The position numbers and the translations under genes are program-made. 61,820 bases of DNA from Clostridia bacterium (lineage in GTDB: Bacteria; Bacillota; Clostridia; Oscillospirales; CAG-272), in the NCBI GenBank assembly GCA_017471825.1, contig JAFURQ010000012.1, positions 1 to 61,820 on the forward strand, in the 5' to 3' direction. This document shows positions 8,465 to 42,433 of this stretch, piece after piece. The first letter of the stretch is position 1. The number at the start of each line of letters is the position of its first letter. The notes under the pieces were generated by a model that was not told the DNA's origin, did not search any database, and saw only the letters and a list, made by a program, of their open reading frames with translations.

Positions 8465-11400
8465 TTATTTGAATACTATTTCGTATTTTCTGCCGTGGGA
8501 GATAAATACGTTTGCCGTCAGGGTTGTTTTGCCTTCGTTTTCGCTAACGGCAATTTTGTGGTTTTTGGATACCACGTCGATTTTTCTGTCGAGGGTAACG
8601 GATAGCTCACGCAGCTTCTGCGTCGGGTCGGTCACGGCAAGGGTGTATTCATCGCCGCGCTTACCGAGCATCACTATGCAGGGGTTATCGACCTTGATTC
8701 CGTCGCACTCGCCTGCCTCGTGGAAAATATAGCTTGCAATGTCGAGCGACCTCGAGCGCACTGCCTGAAGCGATTTTGTATTGGAGATGATTTCAAAATC
8801 GGGGCTGTTGAGGCATGCCTCGAGCTTTTCCTCGGTGGCGTAGGGGACAACCACGTAAGCATAGCCTGCGTCGGTGGGATTCGTGCCGTGGAGAATGCGC
8901 ACCTCGAAGAAGCTCTGGTTCTCGGCCTCCTCGCAGATGTATCGCGAGACGAGCAGCTCTGAATTATTCGGGAATACGTAGCCGGCGTGACCATCCATAA
9001 GCACCCAGCGCGCACCTGTGTAACGTTTTTCGTAGCTTTCCTTGGGCAAAAGCTCGCCTGATACGTACTGATTATCAGACTCAGGCGCAACTATTCTTCT
9101 GTGCTCGACGGTGGTATGAACGGGGGAATCCATGGTTGAGGTGATGCCTGCACCGAGGCAGACTATTTTTCCGTCAAGGCAGAACCAAGCCTTCTTGCAG
9201 ACGAGGTCGTTTTTGTGTATGGGCTGGCTTCCGCCGTAGCCGTAATCGTCGGGATAGAGGTCGGGGCCCTCGCAGTTGAGCGATATGAAGTCCATTGCCG
9301 CAGTTATATACTTATCGTAGAACTGCATACTGCCGGCAAAATCGTTCTTCGAATACCATTCAAACTCACTGCGTATTGAGCGCGCAACTCTCGGACGTGA
9401 GTCCTCGGTGGTGCCGGGGTAGCGGTATGCAACCGCCTCGTTGTTGAGAAGGAAGTTTTTGCCGTCATACTGATTTCCGTCATAGGTCGTGTAAAGGTAG
9501 GTGGCACCGTCGCCGGTGTACCAGCCTCTCTTGTTAGCGCTGTTTATGCACTCGTACGACTTTTCACGACCCGAGGACAGCGCTATGCCAAAGGCATAAT
9601 CACGCATATGCTGTGCGGCTCTGTCGCCCGTAAACCACGCGTGAGCGTATTCGTAGGCAAGATTGTCGGACGGAATGGATTCGTCTGCGAGCAGATCGTT
9701 GAGCTTTGCACATTCAAAAATGGAGCAATGGTCCTTTACCCTCGCGACGAGCTCAGGGGTGTAGGTGTGACGCTTTATGAATGATTTTATATACCTGTCC
9801 TCATCCTCGCCGAAGCAGCCTATCATAGGAAGGGCGGCGGCAAGAACGGATGCGCCGTAGCTTCTCTCAACGCCGAAGGTGCTTCTGCCCGAGAACATCA
9901 TAAAGCCCTGTGAGCGATACATCGCAGGCTCGAAGGAGTATTTTATGAGGTTGAATTGGTTATAGCGCTTCGGTCCCGAGAAATCAAGCGGAGTTTGCGC
10001 AAGTATCGAAGCAACGAAGAGTCCGCGCTGAAGATTAAGAACTCCGTAGGAGATGTTATGCGGACAGGAGTGCGTCCAGTTGACGTAGTCTGCCTTGTGC
10101 ACGCCTGCGCCGTATTCGCAAAGTCCCATGGTGGAGTCGCAGTCAATCTGCGCGCGCTCAAGTCTTCTCGGGTCCTCAAGAAGAAGTGCGCACTTCGTGC
10201 CGGGAATAAGTCTTGAGGATGCACCCGAGCGATTTCTTGGCTCGGCGTACATAATGGACGTTACCCATTTATAGCATTTGAGATATTTTTCCTTTTCCTC
10301 GAGCGTGAGATAATCCTCGACGACGAGCATAGCGTTGGTGAGGCAGTCGGGAGCGCCGACAAACCAATGCCACCAGTTGAACTCGCGTACGTTGCGCCAG
10401 CCCGTGCCTGCAATTTCTGCCTCGCCGTACATATTCTCATACATCCAGAGCATGCAGTTAAGAACGTCGGAGAGGACGGACTCGTCGTGATAGTACTCGG
10501 AGCCGTAGGTGCCCCAGGCAATAGCCATATCCTCTATCTTGATATACTGCTGCCAGAGGTCGTCGGATTCGACGGGCGGCTTGTCGCCCCAAAGAATAAC
10601 TCTGTCAGCCGAGCGGTTGAGACCTTCAAGCGCGCGCTTGCATTTGGTGCTTACCCAAGCGCACTTTTTCTTTATTGCCTCGTCGGAGAGGTCGTTTATT
10701 TCGGGCGAGCCCACGAGGCGAAGGCGCCACATATCCTTGGCAAGCTTATAGTCCTCGTGGGTAAACGAGCTTGCGTCATAATCGCCGAAAACGGCGTACG
10801 CGCCTGCCTCGGCAAGATTTTCGCTCTTGTAGAGAGCCTCGATATGCTCGGGCGTGCCGATGACGATAAGCCTGTCGGAATAGAAGGCGTCTGCTGTGAA
10901 TCCGAGCTCGCGCGCACATTCGATAACGGGAAGATAAACATCCTTGCCGCTCTTGATGGCACGGGAGCTATCCTTTACCGCGGAGCCGAGGAAGCGTTCA
11001 AAGAACGATTCGGGCACGTAGGTTACGCCCCCCTTCGCGATTGAGCGCAGGCGCGGATTTTCCTCGTCGTACTTACGTATTTTTCCATTCGAGATAACGT
11101 TCGGGGAATAGAGGAAAAGAGCAGTTGCACCGTTTTCGGTCATAGAAATAAACTCTTCGTGGTCCTGTTCACTATGGGTGACGCGGTATTTCATATTGTT
11201 GACCGTCGGTACGAATTTCAACTCGATTTTTCTTCCGTTTGCCCCGTCGACGTCAACCGTGAGGATTGTTCTGTCCCTGCGTATATGGAACTTCATTTTT
11301 TCACTCATTTCGGTGATTTCAAGCTCGCGCCACACAGTGAGGGTTATGGTCTTTTGCTCGTGTGTGGGGTCGCAGACCGAAAGGGTGTCCTGAGTCATAG

Positions 11401-13966
11401 TTACAATACAGGGGGAATCCGACATAATACCGCCCTTGTCACCTGCCTCGTGGAAAACGTAGCAGGTCATATCGAGATTTCTCTCGCGGACTATCTGAAG
11501 CGCAGGGGTGTTTGAGATTATCTCAACGTCGGGCTCCTTCGCATACTCTGCGAGCTTTCCGTTTTCCGCGTAGGGAAGGATTGCATAGGCGTAGGTCGCG
11601 TCGGTCGGGTTCGCACCGTGGTCTATGCCTATTTCAATATAGCTCTGACCGTCTGCGCTCTCGCACTCGTAGCGGTTGACGTAGACATCCTTGCCGTCGA
11701 GGAAGACGTAGCCTGCGTGTGCCTCGAGATTGACAAAGTCGGCACCCGTGCAACGCTTTTCATAGCATTCCTTGGGCAGAAGCTCGCCTGATACGTACTG
11801 ATTGTCCGACTCGGGTGCAACTATTCTTCTGTGCTCGACGGTGGTGTGAACGGGGGAATCCATAGTTGAGCTGATGCCTGCGCCGAGGCAGATTATCTCG
11901 TCGTCAAAGCAGAACCATGATTTTTTGGCGCGAAGGTCGTTTTTGTGTATGGGCAGACCACCGCCGTAGCCGCTGTCGTCGGGCAAATCGTCGGGACCGT
12001 CGAAGCTGTAGCTCTCGAAGTCCATTGCCGCAACGATATATTTGTCATCAATCTGCATACTGCCTGCGAAGCTCTTTGACGGGTGCCACGCTCTGCTCGA
12101 GCGGATGGCGCGAGCAACTCTCGGTTGTGAATCCTCGGTTGTACCGGGGAAACGGTATGCGATGCTCTCGTTCGATTTTATAAAATTCTTATTGTCGTGC
12201 TGATGACGGTCGTAATCGGTGTAGAGGTAGGTTGCGCCGTCACCGGTGTACCAGCCGGTCTGGTTTGCGCTGTTTATGCACTCGTAGGCGGGCTCGCGCT
12301 TTGAGGACATAGCTATGCCGAAGGCGTAATTGCTCCTGTGCTGTGCGGCTCTGTCGCCGGTAAACCACGCGTGAGCGTACTCGTAATCGTTCTCCGCGCT
12401 TATCGAGTCGTCGGCGAGAATTTCGTCAACGAGCCTGCAGCCGAGGAAATCGGTGTTTGTCTTTATTGCATTGATAACGGCGGGGGTTACTGCATTTCTC
12501 TTTATCAGGCGCCTGATGTAGTTGTCCTCGTATTCACCGAACATACCGTACATCTGAAGAATATCGGCGAGAATGGCTCCGCCGTGACCGCTTTCGGTTA
12601 TATGCACGCTTCTGCCGCAGAACATAAGGAATGCCTGACCCTTGTACATAGCCGCCTCAAACATATACTTAACCAGCATAAACTGGTTATACTGCTTGGG
12701 GTTGGTAAACTCAGCGGGGGTGCCTGCAAGAGCCGAGGCTATGAAGAGAACTCGGTCAAGATTGAGCTTGCCGTAGGCGTTGTTGTACGGCATACCGTGT
12801 GTCCACTGAACGTAATCGACACGGGGTCCCTCTGCGGTTTCCTCAAGCCCGAGAAGCAGGTCAAAGTCGGCAAACTCATCCCTGAGTCTTTCGGGATATT
12901 CGCAGGTTATACCTACCTTGGTGCATACCGATATCCTCGAAAGAGCGGTATCTCTTCCGGGCCAATGGCGCATAAAGGTGGAGCACCAGTCGAAGCACTT
13001 GAGATAGGTTCGCCTTTCCTCAAGGGTAAAGCTGTTCTCCATAATGCATAATATATCCGAGAGATAGTCGGGGGCGGATATGAACCAGAAATACCAATTG
13101 AACAGGTGTGCGTCGCGCCAGCCCGTTCCTGCGATTTCCGCTTCGCCGTACATATTTTCGTACATCCAGCGGACGCCGTCTACAACGTCGCGCTCAAGCT
13201 CCGGGTTGAGATAAAGCTCGGATCCGTATGTACCAAAGGCACGCGCCATAGCGCGAAGACCGGAATACTGAATGCCGAGCTCCTCGGATTCCACGGGTGG
13301 ATTATCGCCCCAAAGAATGAATCTGTCGGGCTCCTTGTGCATAGTGTTCCATTTATCGCTTGCGGTTTTGGTTATTGCCTCTACCTTCTTTTTGATAGTG
13401 GGGTTGGAGAGGTCGTTTATCTCGGGGGAGCCGACGAGCTTTACGCGCATTTTTGCCCTCGCCGCCTTGTAATCCTCGGGGGTGAAGGCATAGGGGTCGT
13501 ATTTGCCGAACACGAGATAGGAGAGCGCGGTTACTGTATCCTCGCTTCCGTCAAGCTCTGCGATATGCTCGCGGCGACCTATAACGGTCAGGCGGTTGTC
13601 TATATATCCTTTTGCAAAAAGCCCGAGCGCCGTCGCTGCTTCAATAGTTGGCAGATACGAGCCGCCGCGGCTTTTCTTTATAGGTAGGGTAACGCTTTTG
13701 CCGTTGAGGCTCAGAGTAGCGCTGCCGCAATCCTCCGAAAGCTCGGCACCGAGAAAATCGGTGAAAAAGCAAAGGGGCGAGCAGGATACTCCGTCCACCG
13801 CGACGGTGCGTACTCCTCTGTCACTTTGGCAAAGCCTTTTTTGTTCTCCGCACGTATATACGTTGGGAGAATAAACGTAGGTGGCGATGAGGCCCTCGTT
13901 TGACATTTTTTCAGCGCGGGCGCCTGCCTCTGCGTTGTAAAATTCGTAGTTTTCAAATATTTCCAT
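8465..13966 (-). CDS. Tandem double polysaccharide lyase family 8-like protein, cytosolic
   Basis: A 1833-residue protein made of two homologous units, residues 1-924 and 925-1833. Each resembles the 912-residue protein at 39695. Each begins with a small copper-amine-oxidase-N-like domain (GGVTYVPESFFERFLG in unit 2), followed by an alpha/alpha-toroid with the PL8 triad: Asn290 in FNWYFWF, His390 and Tyr398 in THGMPYNNAYG (unit 1); Asn1197, His1299 and Tyr1307 (unit 2). The beta-sandwich marks GWYTGDGATYLY and RFPGTTED follow. PL8 enzymes cleave hyaluronan, chondroitin or xanthan by beta-elimination. There is no signal peptide, so it is predicted to be cytosolic. The start at 13966 has GGAGATAAGGG upstream. 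Met925 (ATG at 11194) is the fossil start of unit 2 and lacks a ribosome-binding site. The substrate is unknown. Confidence 0.85.
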   Translation of the reverse strand: MEIFENYEFYNAEAGARAEKMSNEGLIATYVYSPNVYTCGEQKRLCQSDRGVRTVAVDGVSCSPLCFFTDFLGAELSEDCGSATLSLNGKSVTLPIKKSRGGSYLPTIEAATALGLFAKGYIDNRLTVIGRREHIAELDGSEDTVTALSYLVFGKYDPYAFTPEDYKAARAKMRVKLVGSPEINDLSNPTIKKKVEAITKTASDKWNTMHKEPDRFILWGDNPPVESEELGIQYSGLRAMARAFGTYGSELYLNPELERDVVDGVRWMYENMYGEAEIAGTGWRDAHLFNWYFWFISAPDYLSDILCIMENSFTLEERRTYLKCFDWCSTFMRHWPGRDTALSRISVCTKVGITCEYPERLRDEFADFDLLLGLEETAEGPRVDYVQWTHGMPYNNAYGKLNLDRVLFIASALAGTPAEFTNPKQYNQFMLVKYMFEAAMYKGQAFLMFCGRSVHITESGHGGAILADILQMYGMFGEYEDNYIRRLIKRNAVTPAVINAIKTNTDFLGCRLVDEILADDSISAENDYEYAHAWFTGDRAAQHRSNYAFGIAMSSKREPAYECINSANQTGWYTGDGATYLYTDYDRHQHDNKNFIKSNESIAYRFPGTTEDSQPRVARAIRSSRAWHPSKSFAGSMQIDDKYIVAAMDFESYSFDGPDDLPDDSGYGGGLPIHKNDLRAKKSWFCFDDEIICLGAGISSTMDSPVHTTVEHRRIVAPESDNQYVSGELLPKECYEKRCTGADFVNLEAHAGYVFLDGKDVYVNRYECESADGQSYIEIGIDHGANPTDATYAYAILPYAENGKLAEYAKEPDVEIISNTPALQIVRERNLDMTCYVFHEAGDKGGIMSDSPCIVTMTQDTLSVCDPTHEQKTITLTVWRELEITEMSEKMKFHIRRDRTILTVDVDGANGRKIELKFVPTVNNMKYRVTHSEQDHEEFISMTENGATALFLYSPNVISNGKIRKYDEENPRLRSIAKGGVTYVPESFFERFLGSAVKDSSRAIKSGKDVYLPVIECARELGFTADAFYSDRLIVIGTPEHIEALYKSENLAEAGAYAVFGDYDASSFTHEDYKLAKDMWRLRLVGSPEINDLSDEAIKKKCAWVSTKCKRALEGLNRSADRVILWGDKPPVESDDLWQQYIKIEDMAIAWGTYGSEYYHDESVLSDVLNCMLWMYENMYGEAEIAGTGWRNVREFNWWHWFVGAPDCLTNAMLVVEDYLTLEEKEKYLKCYKWVTSIMYAEPRNRSGASSRLIPGTKCALLLEDPRRLERAQIDCDSTMGLCEYGAGVHKADYVNWTHSCPHNISYGVLNLQRGLFVASILAQTPLDFSGPKRYNQFNLIKYSFEPAMYRSQGFMMFSGRSTFGVERSYGASVLAAALPMIGCFGEDEDRYIKSFIKRHTYTPELVARVKDHCSIFECAKLNDLLADESIPSDNLAYEYAHAWFTGDRAAQHMRDYAFGIALSSGREKSYECINSANKRGWYTGDGATYLYTTYDGNQYDGKNFLLNNEAVAYRYPGTTEDSRPRVARSIRSEFEWYSKNDFAGSMQFYDKYITAAMDFISLNCEGPDLYPDDYGYGGSQPIHKNDLVCKKAWFCLDGKIVCLGAGITSTMDSPVHTTVEHRRIVAPESDNQYVSGELLPKESYEKRYTGARWVLMDGHAGYVFPNNSELLVSRYICEEAENQSFFEVRILHGTNPTDAGYAYVVVPYATEEKLEACLNSPDFEIISNTKSLQAVRSRSLDIASYIFHEAGECDGIKVDNPCIVMLGKRGDEYTLAVTDPTQKLRELSVTLDRKIDVVSKNHKIAVSENEGKTTLTANVFISHGRKYEIVFK

Positions 13967-27469: not shown

Positions 27470-30319
27470 CTAATATCTGTCCTGAAGCTCACCGTCTATA
27501 TACAGCTCGGTTTCGTCAAATTGGTCGGTCGGGGGAACGACGATTCGGAGATCACCGCAGTTTGTGACGTATATTTCCTTCGTGGGTATAGTGGGGTTGG
27601 CGTTTATAGAGGTATCCGCTGCCCCGTTGAAGCCCCAGCACCAAACCGAGCTCTGCTTATAGGTTGCATTGGCGTCGGTTCCGTTCTTGTCGATTCGCTT
27701 GTTGTTGCAGCGGCCGTCACCGTCCGTGTCGTGGAAGGTGAGAACCTCCGTGACGTTTGCCGTACCTGCCGCCAGAGCCTCTGCATAAAGCTGCTCACAT
27801 TTACATACACCGTAATCGTTGGGGTATGCCGACATATCTGCGTTGGGGTCGGAGAGGTCGACTGTTTTGTAATTATTGAGGAAGGAATAAATGTTGAGCG
27901 CAACGAAGTTTTCCTTACTCTCGTCAATATCCTCCCATCTTTCGCCGCTTGAATCAACACCGTAGGTGTACTTAACTATTTTGACGTCGTTCATCTCTAT
28001 TTTCTCGGGAAGATAGGTCTGATAGCCGAAGTAATGGTTAGTCCATTGGGTTTTTATCAGCGTGAGGGTCGGATTGCTTTTTGAGGTCTTAAGAGTAAGA
28101 CCGTCGATTATAACTTTGCCCTCCCAGGTCGAGCCGTAGTCCGTACGGAATATCATCGCCGCGTTCGAGCCGTCGGTGTATATAGTTACGTTTTCGAGCC
28201 TTATCGTACCCTCGCCTATGAAGTTGAGGTGCTCGCAGGTGGAGTTTTTGATGGTTGCGTTGTAGGTTCCGCAGTGAGCGTCGAAGGAGCATGTGAATAC
28301 GTTGTCAAACGTGAGGTTCTTACAGTAGTTAGTACCCATCATACCGTGGTACTTAACGCTTCCGTCCTCCTCGAAGAAGTTGGGCTGCGTGATGTTCTGC
28401 CAGGTGATGTTATTGCTGTAGCGTGCAGACATCTCGTAGGTACCCATACCGACGCTCGTGTTAGCCGAGCCAGTGGTATTAAAGCCCTTGTGTCTTTCCA
28501 GTATAAGATTGTTGAGCACTACGTTTTCGCAGGTGCTTACACTGGTAAAGCCCGAATAGGGTGCACCGGTGGGGCTCGTATCATCGCCGGTTGTGATGTG
28601 CTCGATATTAGTGAGCAGAACGTTGGAGCGTTCTATCTGTATATTTCTCTTGTAGTAGGTTTACTTTGAGGGTGCGCCGTTAAACAGGGTTTCAACAAGT
28701 GCGCGCTCCTCGACGTCGCCACCCGGCGAGCCTCCGCTTACGGTAATGGGCTTATCATCGCAGGGATATGCCTGGATTCTGGTTATGTTTGCGTAGTCCC
28801 ACTGAACGGGGGTTGAGGGGTCGATGGTGCCGTCAGGGCGAATTACGAGCAGCTCGGTCTGTGCTGAGCCGTTGTCCTCGTTATCGCCGTATCTTATGAA
28901 GTGGCGCACGTCAGAGCTTTGCAGTACGATAAGCGTGCGTACACCGGGCGCCCACTCAACCTTCGTGTCGCCCTGATAAACCGAGGTAAAGGGAAGGTTG
29001 GCTCCCGTATAGGTTTTGGACTTGCCGTCGGGCGCTATGGTGAATATGGGGGTGCTGTATTCATCGGAGTAAGGCACTACGGAGCGGTCGTCAAAAATGA
29101 ATTTTGCGCCGTGCCAATAGGTGTCTGTCTTGATTTCAATGGTGTTGATGCCGCTTCCCACACCGAAATAATAGGTCTTGCCTGCGGTGGCGTGAACAGT
29201 GTGGCCCCATTCGTTAGCGTAATCGTGGCATTTCTTGATAGCCATAAAATCGTCGGTTATACCGTCGCCAACTGCGCCGAACTCCTTGTCGGAGTAGTAA
29301 ATATCTTTCAGATTTTTTGTGCGCTCGGTGGTTGCGCTTATGACAACCTTTTTCTTACCGCTGCCGATAACGCTGCTTGAAAAATAATCGGTCACGCAGT
29401 CGGAAAATTTAGCGGGGAACTTCGTTTCAAAAACAAGGTCGCCATCCTCGTTAACGTGCATTCTGTAATCTTCAAGCTCTTTGTTTTCATCGTTATTCTC
29501 GAAGATGCTGAAGCTGATTGCCTTCTGTCCTTCCTTAAGGTCCTCAAAGTCAACTATATCCAGCCATACACCGAGATAGCGGTAGAGCATCGGCTGAAGC
29601 TCGTAGGCTATGCCCGTTGTGTAAAACTCGTTGGTGTCGATAGCCAGAACGAACTCACCAATGGCGGTGCCGGCGATGGTGACGCTCTCAACGGGATAAT
29701 CGGTCGTGAGCTTTTCATAAACGGTGTCGGTAGATATAGAAACGTTCTTGAGCCTGCCGGTTCTGTTGCCTATGCCGAGAATGTCCTCGACGAGAATCTC
29801 CATTGCCTTGCTGTACATTTCAGCACTTCCCGCAAGGACGAGAACCTTGCTGTCCACTACCTTTATACAGTAGCCCTTGTGTCCGAGGTAATGCTCGTCG
29901 ACGTAGTATTTCGCGTCGCGGTTAACGGGGGCGCCGATAATTATTTCAAGCGCCTGCTCGTTGCCGCTGACGTCGTTAACCATCGTTGCATCCTTTGCAA
30001 GATGGGCGTTGATAACGTCAATCTGCTCGTATACAACGTTTTTCGCCTCGCGGCAGCTTGAGGTTATAACGAATTGGAAATTCGCCACGCCGTCGGTTAC
30101 CAGCGCAAGATTTGTTGCGGGGGTGAGAGCGGTGTCGCATTTATCGCATTTGCTGTCTGAGTTTTCGTCGGCGTGAGTGCATTCGCCGATTTTCTCCTGA
30201 CAGCTGTCACAGATGCCGTCGGTGTTGGCATCCGCGTGGGTGCAGGTCTTATCTCCGCCGCCGCATCCGCAGAGAATGAGGAGTGAGAGAGCTAAGAGAA
30301 AAACAAATATTTTTTTCAT
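27470..30319 (-). pseudogene. Beta-helix lipoprotein interrupted by an in-frame TAA
   Basis: The third of three tandem paralogues. The frame runs from the ATG at 30319 (GGAG upstream) to 27470 except for one TAA at 28661-28663. The codons after it continue the family sequence without any frame change (TYYKRNIQIERSN against AYCKRNIEINRSN in the neighbour), so a Tyr codon has become a stop. Intact it would encode about 949 residues: signal peptide with lipobox LCGC (Cys19), two Cys/His/Asp repeats, a GH20b-like domain, a pectate-lyase-3 superfamily start (GAVGDGITDDFMAIKKC) and a right-handed beta-helix. The stop removes most of the helix. It could be a true null allele, a sequencing error, or read through. 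Confidence 0.8.
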
Positions 30320-30346
30320 TTTGAACTCCATTTATGATTTTGATAA

Positions 30347-33091
30347 TCAGTTATCCTTTTCTGCAACGACGCCGTTTTTAATGGTGTAATCAACGCCGTC
30401 AACCGTTATCTCCATATCGTTGAACGAGGGGGAGAGCGGCCATACTATCTTAACGGGCTTTACTGAGGGATCGTTAACTATCGTTACAGACTGTGTCACA
30501 ACGTAGGGGTTAACAAAGCTTGATTCGCTGATATACGAGCTGTCGTTCGTGAGGTTGTATTGGTAAAGGTAAAGCGCATCCTCGTTTACGCTCAGAACGT
30601 TTTCGATTCTGTTGCCGTCGCTGTCAACGCCTGCATACTCGTATTTCGTCATTGTAACGTTCTTCACGGTTATGTTCTGGGGAAGGTGGCATACGTAACC
30701 GAAATCGTGCGAGAGATTTATCGGGGCCTTAACCAGCGACATATTGTTATACTTGGTGTATCTTATATCGAGTCCGTCGATGTATATATCACCCTGCCAG
30801 GTTGCGCCGTAGTCCGTTCTGAGATTGATTGCGGTATACTGTATGTCGGCATAAACGGTTACGTTCTCGTACGTGATAAGTCCGTCGCCTATAAAGTTGA
30901 GGTGCTCGCAGGTGGAGTTTCTGATAGTTGCGTTATAAACGCCGCAGTGAGCGTCGAACGAGGTGACTAACATATTGTCAAAGGTAAGGTTCTTGCAGTA
31001 GTTAGTACCCATAAGTCCCTTTGGCCACACCGAGCCGTCCTCGTTAAAGAAATTGGACTGCGTGCAGTTCTGCCAGGTTACGTTGTTAGCGCTGTTTGCG
31101 TGTATTTCATAGGAGCCCATATTGTTGGCGGATACCATTCCGTTTTCAACAACGTAATAGCTCTGAGGGCACTGGAAAACAAAGTTGTCGATAGTGACGT
31201 TGTTGCAATTCTCTATCGAGGTGAAGCCTGAGTAAGGAGAGCCGGAGCCGTTGGGTATTCCGTCGCCGTCGGGGTCCTGAGGAACTTCGCCGGTGATAAT
31301 ATGCTCAACGCCGGTGATAAACACGTTAGAGCGGTTAATTTCGATGTTTCTTTTGCAGTAGGCGTATCTCGACTCGTTGCCGTTGAAGATGGTTTCGATA
31401 ACGGTTCTGTTATCTCCCTCGCCGCCCGAGATGGTGATGGGTGTGTCGTCAACTCTGTAAACGGTTATGTGAGTCAGCTCCACGTAATCCCACTGAACGG
31501 GGGTGTCGGAGTCAATGTTTCCGTCTGCATCGACGAGAATTATCTCCTTCATGGGATCGCCGTCGTTTGCGTTAAGACCCTCGCGTATGTAATGCTTTAC
31601 GTTATGGTTGTAAACGTAAACCAGCGCATCGTAGCCGGGAGCGAAGCCGATGTTAGAGGCACCGCTTTTGAGTGAGGTGATGGGCGCATCGCCCTCCTCG
31701 AGCGTGGGATAAACGGTTTCTTTGAGATTCGTATCCCAATACCTCTTTGTGTAATTAACGGAGGAGGCGGTGCTCTTTACGATAAATATAGGAGCGTTCC
31801 ACTCCTTCGACTGAATGGTGAGGCCGCTGTCGTCAAAGGTAAATTTACAGCCGTTCCAGTTAGTGTCGGTCTGAATGATTATGGACTCGCCCTCGGTGTC
31901 CGCACCTATATAATAGGATGCGCCGGGATTTGCGTTGGCTATGTGGCCCCATTTATTAGCGTAATCGTGGCACGCCTTGATTGCAAAGAAGTCGTTCTTC
32001 GCGTCGGATCTGAAATCTCCGTAGTATATATTTCTTACGTCTGCGTATTCCTCAAAGGTGGCGGGAATGCTGACGGTTGACTTGGAGCTGCCTGTTATTT
32101 TGTTTATGAGGTAGTTTACGGTGGGCTCCTTGAATTTCTCGGGGAACTCACACTCGTAAATCAGATTATCGCCGTCGACATAAGCGTGGTAGCCCTCGGG
32201 GGTGGTGCCGTCGCCGCCGTTATCTATAATGCGCAGGATAATCGCCTTCTGTCCTGCCTCGAGCTCCTCCTCGGGAACTATCTCAAGCCAAGCACCGAAG
32301 CTCTTGTAAAAAGAGAGCTGTGCTTCAGCCGCAACAGCATCGGGCAGTACGCTCTCGTCGGTTACGTCGTACACGTCGTTGTTATTGTAGGCTATCACGT
32401 AATCCTTGATATTGTTGCCCGCTATTTTAACGCTGGTAATTTTGTAGCCGTCGGTGTTTTCTCTGTAAGCCTTGGAGGAATCGACCGTAACCTCTGTGAG
32501 CTTTTCTGTTTTTCTGCCAATCTCGAAAATGTTTTCAACAACGTATTCGAGCGCGTCCTCATACTTTTCGGTCGAGCCTGCCAGAACCTGCACCTTGGTG
32601 CCGATTATATTTATTGCAAAGCCCTTGTAGCCGAGCTCGTGCTCGTCAAACTTATACTCGTCGCCTCTGTTTTTCGCAGAGCCGATTATTATCTCGATAT
32701 TCTGCGCGTTTTCGGGAAGGTCGTTGACTCTCGAGATTTCTCCCTTAACGTGCTCGCCTATCTGCTCGATAAACTGATTGATGGCGTTGTTGGCAGGGCG
32801 TGCGCTCGTGGTTACCACGACCTGGAAGGTCGGTGCGCCGTTCTGGACGAGAGCAAAGCTGCCGCCCTCGGCGGTGCCTCCCGTTTGTGCGCCGCACTTA
32901 TCGCACGTGCCGTTTTCGTCTGCATCATCGTGAGCGCAGGAGCCGAAGGGCTCGGAGCAGACGTCGCACTTGCCGTCTGTGTTTGCATCTACGTGCTCGC
33001 AGGACTTGTCGCCACAGGCGATGAGCGCAAGGCCGAGAGAAAGGGTCATCGCGAGTGCGAGAAGCACTACAAGTAGTCTTTTGATTTTCAT
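30347..33091 (-). CDS. Secreted beta-helix lipoprotein (pectate-lyase-superfamily-like)
   Basis: A 914-residue surface lipoprotein. Residues 1-26 are a signal peptide ending in lipobox LIAC (Cys26). Residues 31-70 hold two repeats of the form C-x-H-x-D-x-N-x-D-G-x-C-D-x-C. About 80-330 resembles the accessory domain found before GH20/GH67 catalytic domains (IEIIIGSAKNRGDEY, YKGFAINIIG). From about 350 (NIYYGDFRSDAKNDFFAIKAC) to about 840 it looks like a pectate_lyase_3-type right-handed beta-helix with repeated short N-V-T strands. The Gly-Asp-Gly usual at the helix entry is changed to RSDAKND. It is 15 nt from the stop to the following paralogue's frame. It may be a glycan-cleaving or glycan-binding surface protein; catalytic residues cannot be assigned. 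Confidence 0.72.
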   Translation of the reverse strand: MKIKRLLVVLLALAMTLSLGLALIACGDKSCEHVDANTDGKCDVCSEPFGSCAHDDADENGTCDKCGAQTGGTAEGGSFALVQNGAPTFQVVVTTSARPANNAINQFIEQIGEHVKGEISRVNDLPENAQNIEIIIGSAKNRGDEYKFDEHELGYKGFAINIIGTKVQVLAGSTEKYEDALEYVVENIFEIGRKTEKLTEVTVDSSKAYRENTDGYKITSVKIAGNNIKDYVIAYNNNDVYDVTDESVLPDAVAAEAQLSFYKSFGAWLEIVPEEELEAGQKAIILRIIDNGGDGTTPEGYHAYVDGDNLIYECEFPEKFKEPTVNYLINKITGSSKSTVSIPATFEEYADVRNIYYGDFRSDAKNDFFAIKACHDYANKWGHIANANPGASYYIGADTEGESIIIQTDTNWNGCKFTFDDSGLTIQSKEWNAPIFIVKSTASSVNYTKRYWDTNLKETVYPTLEEGDAPITSLKSGASNIGFAPGYDALVYVYNHNVKHYIREGLNANDGDPMKEIILVDADGNIDSDTPVQWDYVELTHITVYRVDDTPITISGGEGDNRTVIETIFNGNESRYAYCKRNIEINRSNVFITGVEHIITGEVPQDPDGDGIPNGSGSPYSGFTSIENCNNVTIDNFVFQCPQSYYVVENGMVSANNMGSYEIHANSANNVTWQNCTQSNFFNEDGSVWPKGLMGTNYCKNLTFDNMLVTSFDAHCGVYNATIRNSTCEHLNFIGDGLITYENVTVYADIQYTAINLRTDYGATWQGDIYIDGLDIRYTKYNNMSLVKAPINLSHDFGYVCHLPQNITVKNVTMTKYEYAGVDSDGNRIENVLSVNEDALYLYQYNLTNDSSYISESSFVNPYVVTQSVTIVNDPSVKPVKIVWPLSPSFNDMEITVDGVDYTIKNGVVAEKDN

Positions 33092-33130
33092 AGTTAAATT
33101 TATCTCCGTTCTTATAATTTTCCATATTAT

Positions 33131-33159
33131 ATTTTATATTTTTGTCGCGCGCGTGTCAA
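33131..33159 (-). promoter_or_regulatory. Promoter of the two-gene beta-helix operon
   Basis: On the minus strand TTGACA (33159-33154), 17 bp, TAAAAT (33136-33131). Confidence 0.7.
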
Positions 33160-33251
33160 GTGAGTTGGTGTAAAGTTAAACGTTTATCCACAAGATTTGG
33201 GGAAAATGGCAAAAAGAAAGGCCGCTATTTTAGTTATTATAAATAAGAAAG

Positions 33252-33279
33252 GCGGCACAGCCCGTGTGGGCTGTGCCGC
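33252..33279 (-). terminator. Terminator of the first beta-helix gene
   Basis: GCGGCACAGCCC pairs with GGGCTGTGCCGC over GTGT. On the minus strand CTTTCTTATTT follows. It separates the gene at 33288 from the next paralogue. Confidence 0.75.
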
Positions 33280-33287
33280 GAAAAGCT

Positions 33288-36131
33288 TTAGTCGTCTTTT
33301 CTCTCAAAGGGATAAAGCACCCTCTGTCCGTCGTGAATATATACCATATCCTCGAGGTTAAGTATTCCGGGGACGTAGATGTTTGCCTGCGTGTTGGTAA
33401 TCGTAAGGGTTTCGGTGCCTATATAGCGGTTTACTCTGTCGCCGCTAACCTGTGATATATCGTCGTCGGTGTAATTATACAGCGAATCGTCGAAGAGATA
33501 AACCACCCTATTCGATTCAACGAAGGAGTCGTATATGGGTTCAAAGTTTTCGTTCCAGGTGGTGTAGGTGTACTGCCATACCGACAGATTGGTGATGGAG
33601 ATGTTTACGGGCAGATAGTTTACGGTATCGCCAATATAGTTTCCGTTCTCATCTCTATATGACGAGAAGTGCTGCTCGGGGTGATATTCGTTGGTTCTGC
33701 AAACGAAGAGATTATTGTAGTCCTCCAGCTTGCACCAACGCATTTCAACGTTTTCTATGATAATATCGCCGCGCCAGGTTGCGCCGTAGTCCTCACGGAT
33801 ATTGAATACACTGTTGCCGCCGTCTGCCATAAGTATCGAGTTCGTAATTTTAGCGGTTCCGGAGCCAATGAGGTTGATATGCTCAAAGGTGCAGTTGTCT
33901 ATCGTCAGGTTGCCAAGTCCCTTGTGGGCGTCGAATGAGGTGAGTATGCAATCACGGAAGGTGAAGTTGCGGCAGTAGTTGGTACCCATCATGCCGCGGT
34001 AATTAACCGAGCCCTCGGCAAACGGCTTTCCTGTAGGCGATCCCGCTACGTCCTCGGGGTCGCCGGTGCCGTAGAAATTCTTTACGTCACAGTTGATGTA
34101 GTTGAGGTTGTTTGCCGCATAGCCGCCGATTTCATAGGTGCCCATGCCAACCCACTTACCAGCCTTCAACTCGAATCTTGCCTTGTGCTGCTGGAGAAGT
34201 ATGTTCTCGAAGGTTACGTTGTTGCAGCTTCTTACGGTGAGAATGCCGGCGTAGGGCGCGCGGGTAAGCTTCTCGTCTGCGAGTATGTGTTCAAAATTCT
34301 TTACAGTAACGTTCGAGCGCTGCACGTTAATATTTCTTGCGAATGCAATGTACTCGTTCACCTCGGGTATGTTTGCGATGTTTGTGAAGGTTCCGCCGCC
34401 GCCGTCAATGGTGATTGCTTCGTCGTCAGCATAATATGCAGTTGCCCATGAAATGTATGGGTAGTCGTAGGAGAGGGGGGTTGACGTGTCGATGGTTCCG
34501 TCGGGATGAACGAGGAGTATCTCGTGCTGATGGTCGCCGCCGTCCTCGTTTGCGCCGTAGCGTATGAAGATCTTTCTCGCCACGGTGCCGATATCGACGA
34601 TTGCCGTGTAATCAAGGGGCCAATTCTCAAATTTCAGTGTATTGTCCGTTTCACCCCAACCGCCGTTTAATGACATTCCGTTGAAGTAGCTGGCGATGTC
34701 AACGGATGACTTGCTGGGTGTGAGAAGGAATATAGAAGCGTTTCTTGCCGCGCAGTCAGCGCAGTATTCGGAACGAAGATAGTTGCCGTTTGAGTCGTAC
34801 ACGTAATGGATGGAATCGTTGTGAACGGCTATTTTGGAGTCGTCAACGAGGAAGTGAGAGCCGTGCCAGAAGGTATCGGTCTGAACCTCTATGGTTTCGC
34901 CGCCCGTATTCTTGTCTATGAAATAGGTTTTTCCTTCGTCGGCGTGAACGATATGTCCCCACTTGTTAGCGTAATCGTGGCATGCCTTGATTGCGAAGAA
35001 ATCGTCGGTTATGCCGTCACCTACCGCGCCGAACTTTTTGTCGGAGTACTTAATATTGCGCACGTCGATCTTCTCGTCAAGAGTCGCGGAAACGTTAACC
35101 GTTTTCTTTTTGGTGAGAATGAAGGTATCGTGAAGGTAATCCTTGGTATGCTCTACGAAGGAATCGGGGAACTGGCAGTCGAAAACAAGGTTGCCGCTCT
35201 CGGTTACGTAGTAATGGAAGCCTTCCTCTGTTGCGCCCTCGTCGCTATCGGAGAGTATGTTGAACTCGATAGCCTTCTTGCTCGTAGCCTCGGTACTGTC
35301 GGGCTCAACGATGTCAAGCCAAACTCCAAGCTTCTGATAGAAGAGGGTCTGAATGTTTGCCGCGAGAGTTTCGGGGAGGTTCTCGGTCTCTATCTCGTGA
35401 GCGAAGGTTGCATCGGATTCAACCACGATAACGTAATCGTCGAGGTTGTTGCCCGCGATTTTTGCGCTTGTGAGGAGATAGTTATCCGCGGGGGTGAGCT
35501 CCTCGTAGGACTGATCTGCGGTTGCAGTGATCTCGGTGAGCTCCTTGGTGCTTCTCTTGATGCCCATAATGTTCTCACTGATGTATTCAAGAGCATCCTC
35601 GTATTTGGATGCAGAGCCTGCGAGCACCTGAACCTTGGAGCCGATAATCTTAACGGCGAAGCCCTTGTGACCGAGGTAATGCTCGTCGATCTTATACTCG
35701 TCGCCGCGCGTGTTTACAGAGCCGAAAAGTATCTCGACGTCCTGTACGTTGGTTGAAAGGTCGTTTACTACCATAACGTCGTTTTTAACGAGCTCGGATA
35801 TATCGGAGGCAAACTCTTCTGCCTTGTTGCGTGCCTCTTTTCCGTTCGGGCCGATAACGATCTGGAAGTTAGCCTTACCGCCGCTTATGAGTGCGGCAGA
35901 GCCGGATGCTGCCGAAACGTCGGCACCGCACTTATTGCATTTGCCGTCCTCATCACTATCCTCGTGTGTGCAGGAGCCGAAGGGCTCGGAGCAGTTATCA
36001 CACTTACCGTCGGTGTTCGCATCAACGTGGGTGCAGGTGTCGTCACCGCCGCCACAGCTTGCAAGGACGAGTCCTGCGGCAAGCACGATGGTAAGAGCCA
36101 AGAGAATAGAAATTATTCTTTTTGCTTTCAT
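33288..36131 (-). CDS. Secreted beta-helix lipoprotein (pectate-lyase-superfamily-like), first paralogue
   Basis: A 947-residue paralogue of the two following genes. Signal peptide with lipobox LASC (Cys26), two Cys/His/Asp repeats (CTHVDANTDGKCDNC, CTHEDSDEDGKCNKC), the GH20b-like region (VEILFGSVNTRGDEY, HKGFAVKIIG), then a full pectate-lyase-3 entry FGAVGDGITDDFFAIKAC near residue 370 followed by the beta-helix with strands such as NVTFENILL and NLTIDNCTF. A short Cys pair (YCADCAARN) interrupts the helix start. It has its own promoter, an operator-like palindrome and a terminator, so it is regulated separately from its paralogues. Likely acts on the cell surface on an extracellular polysaccharide; the activity is inferred from fold only. 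Confidence 0.75.
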   Translation of the reverse strand: MKAKRIISILLALTIVLAAGLVLASCGGGDDTCTHVDANTDGKCDNCSEPFGSCTHEDSDEDGKCNKCGADVSAASGSAALISGGKANFQIVIGPNGKEARNKAEEFASDISELVKNDVMVVNDLSTNVQDVEILFGSVNTRGDEYKIDEHYLGHKGFAVKIIGSKVQVLAGSASKYEDALEYISENIMGIKRSTKELTEITATADQSYEELTPADNYLLTSAKIAGNNLDDYVIVVESDATFAHEIETENLPETLAANIQTLFYQKLGVWLDIVEPDSTEATSKKAIEFNILSDSDEGATEEGFHYYVTESGNLVFDCQFPDSFVEHTKDYLHDTFILTKKKTVNVSATLDEKIDVRNIKYSDKKFGAVGDGITDDFFAIKACHDYANKWGHIVHADEGKTYFIDKNTGGETIEVQTDTFWHGSHFLVDDSKIAVHNDSIHYVYDSNGNYLRSEYCADCAARNASIFLLTPSKSSVDIASYFNGMSLNGGWGETDNTLKFENWPLDYTAIVDIGTVARKIFIRYGANEDGGDHQHEILLVHPDGTIDTSTPLSYDYPYISWATAYYADDEAITIDGGGGTFTNIANIPEVNEYIAFARNINVQRSNVTVKNFEHILADEKLTRAPYAGILTVRSCNNVTFENILLQQHKARFELKAGKWVGMGTYEIGGYAANNLNYINCDVKNFYGTGDPEDVAGSPTGKPFAEGSVNYRGMMGTNYCRNFTFRDCILTSFDAHKGLGNLTIDNCTFEHINLIGSGTAKITNSILMADGGNSVFNIREDYGATWRGDIIIENVEMRWCKLEDYNNLFVCRTNEYHPEQHFSSYRDENGNYIGDTVNYLPVNISITNLSVWQYTYTTWNENFEPIYDSFVESNRVVYLFDDSLYNYTDDDISQVSGDRVNRYIGTETLTITNTQANIYVPGILNLEDMVYIHDGQRVLYPFERKDD

Positions 36132-39694: not shown

Positions 39695-42433
39695 ATGAGA
39701 TACGATGGCTTTACAAAAGAGGACGAGGTAAGGTTTATTGAGCTTACCGCGCTCGGTGTAACGGCGCTTTACATTTACACGGACAAGCTCATTTCGTGCG
39801 GTGTACGTACTACCTACGGTGAGTCGGCAGATGAGCGCGCTATTGCATATTCGGGCGAGATGTATGCACCCGTGTCGCTTTTTGTGCGTTTTCTCGGCGC
39901 GTCGTGCAGTGATAACGGTACCGGCGTTACTCTAAGCCTTGGTGACAGATGCGTTGACTTGCGCTACGAGAGAAAGACGGGATATTTGCCCGTCGCGGCA
40001 ACCTGCTCGGCTCTCGGGCTTTATACGAAGCAGCTCTGCGAGGGAGGCTTCATTCTGATAGGTGATAAGGAGCGTGTGGATGCTATCGCATCTGATGAGG
40101 TGCTCGTCAAGGCAGGACCGTATGCTTTGTTCGGCGATTACGATACCGCAGGCTTTACCGACGAGGATTACGAGGCTGTGGCGAAAAATTTCCACGATAG
40201 GCTCGTCGGCACCGAGCAAACCAATGACGTGAACAATCCTCTTGTGAGGGACAAGCTTGCCAAAATAAATGAGAGGTGTGCAAGCGCGCTTGCGGGCCTT
40301 GACCGATCGGGTGACCCGATAGTGCTTTGGGGTGACAAACCCCTGCGCGACACTGAGGACGGCGCACGGCAGTATTCCTTCCTTCGCTCTCTTGCTGTTG
40401 CCTACGGTACCTACGGCAGTGATTACTACGGCGATAAATCGGTTTTTGACGATATAATCTATTCACTTGAATGGATGTACCGCCACGCATACGGCGAGGA
40501 CATGATAGCAGGACACGGCTGGCGCGACCCCAAGCTCCCTAACTGGTGGTATATGTACATAGGAGCGCCCGAGCATCTCGCTGATATTCTTCTTATACTT
40601 TACAGAGAAATCTCGCTTGAGGACAGGCGCAGGTACCTCAAATGCTTCGAGTGGATCGCAAGCTGGATGTGCCTCGGTCCAAATTGGAGAATGACGAGAA
40701 TAAAGATATGTACCGAGTACGGTATTCTTCTGCACGAGCCGAAGTATCTTATTCAGGAGGCGCAGGACTTTGACGCGCTGCTTCAGGTTAAACGACTCGA
40801 CTACGTGGATTTCACTCACACATATCCTCACAATATGTCCTATGGCGGCATTTATATGAGCCGTTTGGTGTATATCGCGTCGGTGCTTGCAGGCTCTCCG
40901 ATTGAATATAACAGCCCGAACTCCTATAAGCAGTTCAATCGCATCAAATATATGTACGAGCCCGCTATGTATAAGGGACAGGCGTTCTTTATGCTCGCAG
41001 GCAGATATACCAAGCAGCTGGTTGAAGCAGCAAAGTCGGCAGACTTCCTTTGCCACACTCTCTCGATGATCGGTGTTTACGGTGAGGACGAGGACGCGTA
41101 TATCAAGCAGTTCCTCAAGAGAAGCTCGGCAAACCCAATTTTCCGTGATACGATACTGAAAAATGCATCCTTCGTCGACCTCGCAAGGTTTGAGCAGATA
41201 CTCGCCGACGAGTCGATTCCGTACGAGTATTACTACGAGTACGCTCACGCGTGGTATACGGGCGACAGAGCCGCACAGCACAGAAACAACTACGCCGTCG
41301 GTATCGCCATGGCATCAAACCGCCACATAAACTACGAGTCGATACTGCACGAGAACAAGACGGGCTGGTATACGGGCGACGGAGCCTTCCACCTCTATAC
41401 GAGCTACGACACCAATCAGTATGACGGCGACAATTTCATTAATAATATAAATATAGCCTACCGATTCCCCGGTACAACCGAGGACATGCAAGAGAGGGTG
41501 TCGCGCGGAATATGCTTCAATCCCTGGAAGGCGCCCAATGATTTCGCGGGATCGATACAGGTGGACAGTAAATATATCACCGCCGGTATGGAATTCATAT
41601 CCGAGTACTGTGACGAGGACACGCAGCAGTACGACGAGGTCAGGGGCTGGAGCCGTGCGGAGCACCACAACGACCTCACCTGCAGGAAGGCTTGGTTCTG
41701 CTTCGATAACGAGGTGGTTCTTCTCGGCGCGGGCATAACCTCTACTATGAGCTCTCCCGTAAACACCATCGCCGCTCACCGCAGAATAGTGAACGACGAG
41801 AGTCTCTCACAGCTCGTGAGGTACGGAGGCGAGCTCGCCGAGCTCGAAAAGTCGGAATTTGAGAGAAGATACAAAAATCCGGACTACGTTCTCTGGCAGG
41901 GACACGCAGGCTTCGTCTTCCTTGAAAACACCAACCTCTACGTCAGCAGATATAATTACACGACGAGCAAGGAGCAGCCCTATCTCGAGCTTCGAATAGA
42001 GCACGGCGCAAATCCGACGAACGCATCCTATGCCTACGCCGTTATCCCTTATGCCGATGAAGAAACACTCGACCGTTACTCAAAATCGCCCGATGTATGT
42101 ATAATTTCTAACACCAAAGCTCTGCAAGCGGTGAAGGAATCTACCATCGGTATCACGGGTATGGTATTCTATGAGGCAGGTGAGTGTGAGGGTGTAAAAG
42201 TTGACACGGGTGCCATCGTAATGCTTAAAGAATGCGGTGGAGTGCTTGAATTTTCGATTTGCGACCCCACGCAAAAGCAGACCGAGCTTTCGGTATCGAT
42301 TAGCGGCTCGCTTGAGCCGGTCGACGCTGACGATAAGGTGAGCGTTTCTGTAAACGGCGACTGTGTGAAATTGAAAATAAATTGTGCGGACTCAATGGGT
42401 GCTCCCTTCAGAGCAAGGTTCAGGAGGGGGTAG
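39695..42433 (+). CDS. Polysaccharide lyase family 8-like protein, cytosolic
   Basis: A 912-residue single-unit homologue of each half of the double protein at 8465-13966. An N-terminal copper-amine-oxidase-N-like domain (about 50-125; GEMYAPVSLFVRFLG) precedes the alpha/alpha-toroid with Asn283 (LPNWWYMYIGAP), His375 and Tyr383 (FTHTYPHNMSYG), and the sandwich marks GWYTGDGAFHLY and YRFPGTTED. His and Tyr have the same positions here as in unit 2 of the double protein when that unit is counted from Met925. No signal peptide, so it is predicted to act on imported oligosaccharides. CGGAG precedes the ATG. Follows yitT by 21 nt and overlaps the convergent amidase-fold gene by 14 bp. Substrate unknown; PL8 members act on hyaluronan, chondroitin and xanthan. 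Confidence 0.85.
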   Translation: MRYDGFTKEDEVRFIELTALGVTALYIYTDKLISCGVRTTYGESADERAIAYSGEMYAPVSLFVRFLGASCSDNGTGVTLSLGDRCVDLRYERKTGYLPVAATCSALGLYTKQLCEGGFILIGDKERVDAIASDEVLVKAGPYALFGDYDTAGFTDEDYEAVAKNFHDRLVGTEQTNDVNNPLVRDKLAKINERCASALAGLDRSGDPIVLWGDKPLRDTEDGARQYSFLRSLAVAYGTYGSDYYGDKSVFDDIIYSLEWMYRHAYGEDMIAGHGWRDPKLPNWWYMYIGAPEHLADILLILYREISLEDRRRYLKCFEWIASWMCLGPNWRMTRIKICTEYGILLHEPKYLIQEAQDFDALLQVKRLDYVDFTHTYPHNMSYGGIYMSRLVYIASVLAGSPIEYNSPNSYKQFNRIKYMYEPAMYKGQAFFMLAGRYTKQLVEAAKSADFLCHTLSMIGVYGEDEDAYIKQFLKRSSANPIFRDTILKNASFVDLARFEQILADESIPYEYYYEYAHAWYTGDRAAQHRNNYAVGIAMASNRHINYESILHENKTGWYTGDGAFHLYTSYDTNQYDGDNFINNINIAYRFPGTTEDMQERVSRGICFNPWKAPNDFAGSIQVDSKYITAGMEFISEYCDEDTQQYDEVRGWSRAEHHNDLTCRKAWFCFDNEVVLLGAGITSTMSSPVNTIAAHRRIVNDESLSQLVRYGGELAELEKSEFERRYKNPDYVLWQGHAGFVFLENTNLYVSRYNYTTSKEQPYLELRIEHGANPTNASYAYAVIPYADEETLDRYSKSPDVCIISNTKALQAVKESTIGITGMVFYEAGECEGVKVDTGAIVMLKECGGVLEFSICDPTQKQTELSVSISGSLEPVDADDKVSVSVNGDCVKLKINCADSMGAPFRARFRRG

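Follow-up and report, generated by a model that had tools for sequence, protein, structure and literature searches.

Two fused polysaccharide lyase family 8-like units without the usual active-site asparagine in a Clostridia bacterium

The fused gene and its two units

The window, which is the whole stretch of 61,820 nucleotides analysed here, belongs to contig JAFURQ010000012.1 of a Clostridia bacterium (assembly GCA_017471825.1). On its minus strand an open reading frame encoding 1833 amino acids extends from an ATG at 13966 to a stop at 8465, and a GGAG was seen by eye upstream of the ATG. When the protein was compared with Pfam, the matches to Lyase_8 (301.6 bits), Lyase_8_N (188.6 bits) and Lyase_8_C (104.7 bits) all exceeded the Pfam cut-offs, indicating membership of polysaccharide lyase family 8 (PL8) by sequence. 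Each of the three domains matched two stretches of the protein, and the two halves shared 51% identity over 905 aligned positions, in agreement with the original prediction of two full PL8-like units in one chain. The closest solved structures were xanthan lyases, 6f2p for unit 1 (E 2.9e-62, with a query one residue longer, to Met925) and 1j0m for unit 2 (E 6.6e-52, with a query beginning at residue 926). The genome to which the window belongs (1.63 Mb, 89.8% complete, 5.2% contamination) contained only three Lyase_8 matches, namely unit 1, unit 2 and a single-unit protein whose gene begins at 39695 in the window (the 39695 protein). The features are as follows.

8465..13966, minus strand: fused two-unit PL8-like gene, 1833 aa (Pfam; fused orthologue in the goat colon genome RGIG2009)
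11195..13966, minus strand: unit 1, residues 1-924 (Pfam, half-to-half alignment, PDB match)
8465..11194, minus strand: unit 2, residues 925-1833 plus stop (Pfam, half-to-half alignment, PDB match)
13487..13966, minus strand: Cu_amine_oxidN1-like N-terminal domain of unit 1, limits approximate (Pfam cut-off reached by relatives, no match for unit 1; common invariant columns)
11567..12370, minus strand: Lyase_8 super-sandwich domain of unit 1 (Pfam)
9776..10729, minus strand: Lyase_8_N alpha-helical domain of unit 2 (Pfam)
8837..9640, minus strand: Lyase_8 super-sandwich domain of unit 2 (profile match)
8603..8794, minus strand: Lyase_8_C domain of unit 2 (Pfam)
12773..12799, minus strand: catalytic segment of unit 1 from His390 to Tyr398, H-8-Y (alignment)
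12935..12937, minus strand: Arg344 of unit 1, clade-invariant, near the lost Asn position (20/20 clade units, 0/36 others)
10046..10072, minus strand: catalytic His to Tyr segment of unit 2, H-8-Y (alignment)
11192..11194, minus strand: Met925 within the chain, where the two units join; by eye it lacks a ribosome-binding site (sequence inspection)
11768..11869, minus strand: residues 700-733 of unit 1, 34 residues that are the same in unit 2 (gene conversion probable)
9038..9139, minus strand: stretch of unit 2 matching residues 700-733 of unit 1 (half-to-half alignment)
39695..42433, plus strand: paralogue of 912 aa with a single unit, in the same clade (Pfam, tree)

Origin of the fusion

Fused genes were searched for in 59 genomes, the window's own and 58 relatives. 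One of the 58 relatives, the goat colon MAG RGIG2009 (G023, locus L012), carried a fused orthologue of 1832 aa, free of stops and 59% identical to the window protein over 1833 aa. The gene order SpoU, M3 peptidase, Na/H exchanger, asparaginase, fused gene, DegV, FakA and His-phosphatase was the same in both genomes. These neighbours were 65-77% identical between the two and thus better conserved than the fused protein. Twelve other window genes were compared with the 22.7 kb stretch of RGIG2009; seven had a match there and five had none. A recent assembly or stop-loss artefact as the source of the fusion was ruled out by this syntenic fused orthologue. Opposite unit 1 of the RGIG2009 gene, on the antisense strand, there is also an open frame of 1082 codons (L012:9749-12997, minus strand), probably an effect of composition.

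In a tree built by a quick method, with SH-aLRT as the only support measure, unit 1 of the window paired with unit 1 of RGIG2009 and unit 2 with unit 2 (support 100 for each pair). Since like units pair across the two species, the duplication is older than the species split, and the original proposal of a fusion after duplication holds. It had further been proposed to place both units in a phylogeny with the 39695 protein; the three did form one group (support 97), whose internal branching order the tree left unresolved. Between the species, NG86 estimates were dN 0.39 and dS 1.65 for unit 1 and dN 0.31 and dS 1.74 for unit 2, the dS values being near saturation, which indicate purifying selection on both units.

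Residues 700-733 of unit 1 (34 residues) were identical in unit 2 of the window protein, and the nucleotide identity of the two units was 81-92% in windows around these residues compared with 59% overall; intragenic gene conversion between the units is therefore probable in this region.

Met925, the first residue of unit 2, had been taken for a surviving start codon and thus a trace of the fusion. By eye, no Shine-Dalgarno-like sequence precedes it and it aligns with the start of the 39695 protein, as that idea would have it, but the RGIG2009 orthologue has Gln at the aligned place. As it is not kept in the orthologue, Met925 is a weak trace. That the pair arose by tandem duplication is better supported by the sheep colon MAG RGIG5386 (G820), which has eight single-unit genes of the same clade, one on contig C17 and seven in tandem on contig C21, the latter consecutive and on the same strand (L104:12019-19000 and L105:1-13442). 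Two gene copies, probably tandem, would have been joined in frame before the window species and RGIG2009 parted, in the ancestor that they share.

A clade of PL8-like units

Related units were collected by a profile scan of GTDB genomes, which gave 10 loci. Eight of them (L012-L019) were of the same type as the window units, L013 and L014 coming from one genome; L020 held two ordinary-type PL8 units and L021 was a fragment. Further searches covered overlapping sets of 394 genomes of the order, 391 of the class, 20 of one family, 69 of the genus and 300 of another family. Together the clade sample comprised 20 units from 10 genomes. In the genus sample, PL8 matches were found in 13 of the 69 genomes and clade units in three, i.e. 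the window genome (three units), RGIG2009 (the fused pair) and RGIG5386 (eight); the other ten matching genomes had ordinary PL8s where the motif was covered and otherwise sequences too short to class. The class sample gave PL8 matches in 28 of 391 genomes, and among the candidates scored there a single frame with two complete Lyase_8 domains occurred in the window genome only.

The tree placed all of its 18 clade units on one side of a single branch (support 100, stem length 0.73). The nearest unit outside was L068, a single PL8 from the class sample (G749) that has the ordinary Asn and was sister to the clade (support 98). L068 carries the equivalents of Trp283, Arg284 and Arg405 but differs from the clade in keeping Asn and the H-9-Y spacing. 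The units form a distinct PL8 clade, apparently without prior description. Neither a PL8-PL8 fusion nor an Asn-less PL8 clade appeared in the titles and abstract openings of the literature matches listed. The available text of PMC4175358 describes an enzyme with one PL8 domain, and that of PMC11669647 a Clostridium saccharolyticum PL8 enzyme of 1840 aa.

Two extra RGIG5386 units entered the residue counts only, which accordingly rest on 20 clade units against 18 in the tree. The tree does not include L064, L066 and L074_0, and the main alignment omits the fragments L013_2_1153, L074_2 and L077_0 as well as L063_2 (the same gene as L031); fragment L037 was unused. L064 and L066 are uncovered at the Asn column, and L064 also at the His and Tyr columns. 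Twenty-nine loci (L052-L080) were taken from part of the match rows of the class search. The supplementary non-clade set had 25 rows, 20 of them covered and five too short, broken or uncovered (L021, L077 twice, L074 and L101). The non-clade rows are not independent, as near-copies occur among them (L057/L079, L056/L080, L053/L058 and L026/L027). For the seven named clade genomes of the GTDB scan, the host label was goat, sheep or water-deer gut in four and no source was given in three.

Active-site residues

The catalytic residues were numbered as in xanthan lyase, with Asn194, His246 and Tyr255, to which Arg309 of the active site was added. These positions agreed with the numbering of the PDB chains, and the 1x1h chain carries Ala at the place of Asn194. 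Residues were mapped in the 20 clade units and in 38 other PL8s, the latter counted where covered. The catalytic His and Tyr were present in 20/20 clade units and 37/37 others, as was the equivalent of Arg309, which is Arg452 of the window protein. The Asp240 equivalent was likewise found in all 20 clade units. At the Asn194 column, however, none of the 20 clade units had Asn and 11 different residues occurred, whereas Asn was present in 36/36 covered rows of the main alignment and in 55/56 when supplementary rows were added. Asn, His, Tyr and Arg309 were all kept in 19 of the 20 covered supplementary rows. Thus, of the Asn/His/Tyr triad originally assigned to each unit, His and Tyr stand while Asn is missing, and the earlier view that both sites look intact is not supported.

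The clade also differed in its spacing, with 8 between His and Tyr in 20/20 units against 9 in 36/37 others and 15 in the remaining one. Three residues set the clade apart: Arg344 (20/20 clade, 0/36 others in the main alignment), Thr349 (20/20 and 0/36) and Arg405 (20/20 and 1/37). Depending on the alignment, the offset of Arg344 from the Asn position is +4 or +6. Pairwise phmmer alignments had pointed to a replacement of the catalytic His by Trp; the multiple alignment ruled this out, since the D-x5-H of the clade aligns with the canonical DGSFxQH, with a deletion of one residue after His.

Were the Asn only shifted by a few positions, the clade would consist of ordinary PL8 lyases and the loss would be an effect of alignment. 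At least one Asn did occur in the examined loop stretch of 8/18 clade members, including unit 2 and the 39695 protein. The other 10/18, including both unit 1 sequences and unit 2 of RGIG2009, had none in this stretch, and in the members that have one its position varies. In the window protein, the loop of unit 1 is entirely free of Asn, and the single Asn of the unit 2 loop lies off the Asn194 column and is absent from the RGIG2009 orthologue. Given also how constant the column is in the other rows, we regard a mere shift as very improbable.

The PL8-like protein L033 (G426, C16), which lies outside the clade, carries Asp, Ser and Ser where Asn, His and the active-site Arg would stand, and keeps Tyr; judged from these replacements it is probably an inactive PL8 relative. 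With three such residues gone at once in L033, it is probable that this bacterial family includes PL8 relatives that are inactive. The units of the clade might in the same way have ceased to be lyases, the PL8 scaffold being reused for another reaction (hydrolase or epimerase) or for sugar binding. The near-constancy of the lost residue elsewhere and the long stem of the clade would fit such a change, and L033 illustrates that catalytic residues can go. In the related PL35 enzymes, replacement of this Asn by Ala abolishes activity toward chondroitin sulfate C according to the available text of PMC12088678, which speaks against the residue being lost easily; units lacking it may catalyse another reaction, or none at all. 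Unlike L033, however, every clade unit retains the His, Tyr, Arg309 and Asp240 equivalents, and eight copies in one genome together with the low dN/dS of the fused gene suggest active enzymes. We therefore consider a non-lyase function unlikely.

Between the two pairs of orthologous units, 81 columns were fixed differences and 287 were identical in all four sequences. Unit 1 has Tyr292 in place of the Trp148 equivalent that is found in unit 2 and in 16/18 clade units. These differences bear out the earlier observation that the residues around the two sites are not the same, and they support a divergence between the sites of unit 1 and unit 2.

N-terminal domain and cellular location

An amine-oxidase-like domain had been predicted at the N-terminus of each unit. 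PF07833 (Cu_amine_oxidN1) matched 3/9 clade N-termini above the Pfam cut-off and unit 2 of the window weakly (E 0.14), and it gave no match for unit 1 or the 39695 protein; as the window units have invariant columns in common with their relatives here, their N-terminal domain is putatively of this kind.

As predicted, the fused protein had no strongly hydrophobic N-terminus and hence no clear signal peptide, judged by hydropathy and not by a trained predictor. N-terminal hydropathy was at most 1.87 in all 15 clade proteins. Among 11 other PL8 rows, seven reached 2.26-3.57, two with apparently intact starts had 1.16 and 1.35, and two were truncated by the locus. The clade enzymes are therefore probably cytosolic. 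Secretion had been taken as the rule for known PL8 enzymes, which does not hold, since PMC12827396, in its available text, reports two characterised xanthan lyases without signal peptide. These two, Pt_XanPL8a and the PL8 of R. UCG13, are described as active on xanthan-derived oligosaccharides (PMC12827396, PMC10881899), although Pt_XanPL8a was also detected in the culture supernatant (PMC12827396). By these descriptions they resemble the window units in being PL8s without signal peptide and differ from the fused gene in being encoded within xanthan loci, alongside GH88 and further enzymes; the available text mentions no fusion.

Genomic context

No catabolic partner of the fused gene could be recognised among the 30 window proteins scanned, and neither a transporter nor a GH88/GH105 gene was recognised beside it. 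PF07470 (GH88/GH105) matched twice in the genome, at 305.5 and 70.4 bits, both times on other contigs. The stronger match (G000 C3, about 17.5-19.8 kb; L050:8498-10774) adjoins, by eye, an oligogalacturonate-lyase-like gene, and the two are probably part of a pectin-oligomer operon.

Elsewhere in the clade, heparinase-II-like proteins were found near two loci (L014, above the HepII_C cut-off, and L016, below the cut-offs) and BNR_2 proteins near two (L019 and L016). The heparinase-II-like protein of L014, near the eighth RGIG5386 gene, has 1966 aa and a secretion-signal-like start. The clues to the substrate are thin.

A gene for an M14 zinc-peptidase-like protein of about 366 aa adjoins four single-unit clade genes (L015, L018, L023 and L024; assigned by Pfam for L018 and L023 and by N-terminal sequence similarity for L015 and L024), and another lies a few kb from L017. 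Such a neighbour could be an amidase-like enzyme that unmasks the substrate before or after cleavage. The clade members would then be lyases acting on uronates whose charge is masked by methyl esterification or amidation. Such lyases can do without a neutraliser, and a site without Asn that retains Tyr, His and Arg would suit them. The 30 scanned window proteins, however, included no M14 match, inspection of the RGIG5386 array by eye revealed no such gene either, and a comparison of the M14 protein with solved structures yielded nothing at E 0.1. An invariant Arg close to the lost Asn also speaks for a charged substrate, and we consider masked substrates quite unlikely.

Further along the window (28661-36131, minus strand), three consecutive proteins have by eye lipoprotein-like starts and repeated CxHxDxNxDGxCDxC cysteine motifs, the first resembling a shortened copy of the other two. 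They gave no Lyase_8 match and no Pfam family above cut-off.

Comparison with known PL8 enzymes and proposed function

The window units share the three-domain architecture of the PL8 xanthan lyases (1j0m and 2e22 of Bacillus sp. GL1; 6f2p of Paenibacillus) and keep the equivalents of their His, Tyr and Arg309. They differ from them in the absence of Asn194, in a His-Tyr distance one residue shorter and in an extra, putatively PF07833-like N-terminal domain, and the whole protein differs in having no clear signal peptide and two units fused. Chondroitin ABC lyases (2q1f, 1hn0) are also PL8 but matched more weakly, with E 3e-13 to 4e-17 compared with about 1e-90 to 1e-92 for the xanthan lyases; for 2q1f, Asp398 is reported as the neutraliser in the available text of PMC12088678.

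The reading that we favour, by a little more than even chances, is that two genes for unsecreted PL8-like lyases were fused and that the units cleave imported uronate oligosaccharides inside the cell with a rebuilt neutralising site. Each unit would most likely still cleave uronic-acid-containing oligosaccharides by beta-elimination, with Tyr and His as acid and base and Arg452 in the site. If the carboxylate is charged, its neutralisation would have passed from the usual Asn to another residue, for which the clade-invariant Arg344 is the first candidate. An Arg in this role is plausible because enzymes of the same fold, which mostly use Asn, include such exceptions as Arg314 in PL15, Glu205 in PL21 and Asp398 in the PL8 ABC lyase (PMC12088678, Table 4, in the part available). 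More tentatively, with the chances rather against it, the clade may be a new PL8 subfamily in which beta-elimination proceeds without Asn, through Arg344 or on charge-masked uronates, and which expanded in tandem arrays and once gave rise to a fused two-site enzyme with diverged specificities.

Unsecreted PL8s are already known (PMC12827396, available text). The fusion is itself uncommon but of a familiar kind; of greater interest is that one catalytic residue has been lost throughout the clade. A catalytic residue that hardly varies elsewhere is absent here and the others are retained, in a clade rich in paralogues that can be tested individually; this amounts to a natural experiment on how much change the PL8 active site tolerates. 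The finding also points to an as yet unassigned acidic-glycan pathway in gut Clostridia.
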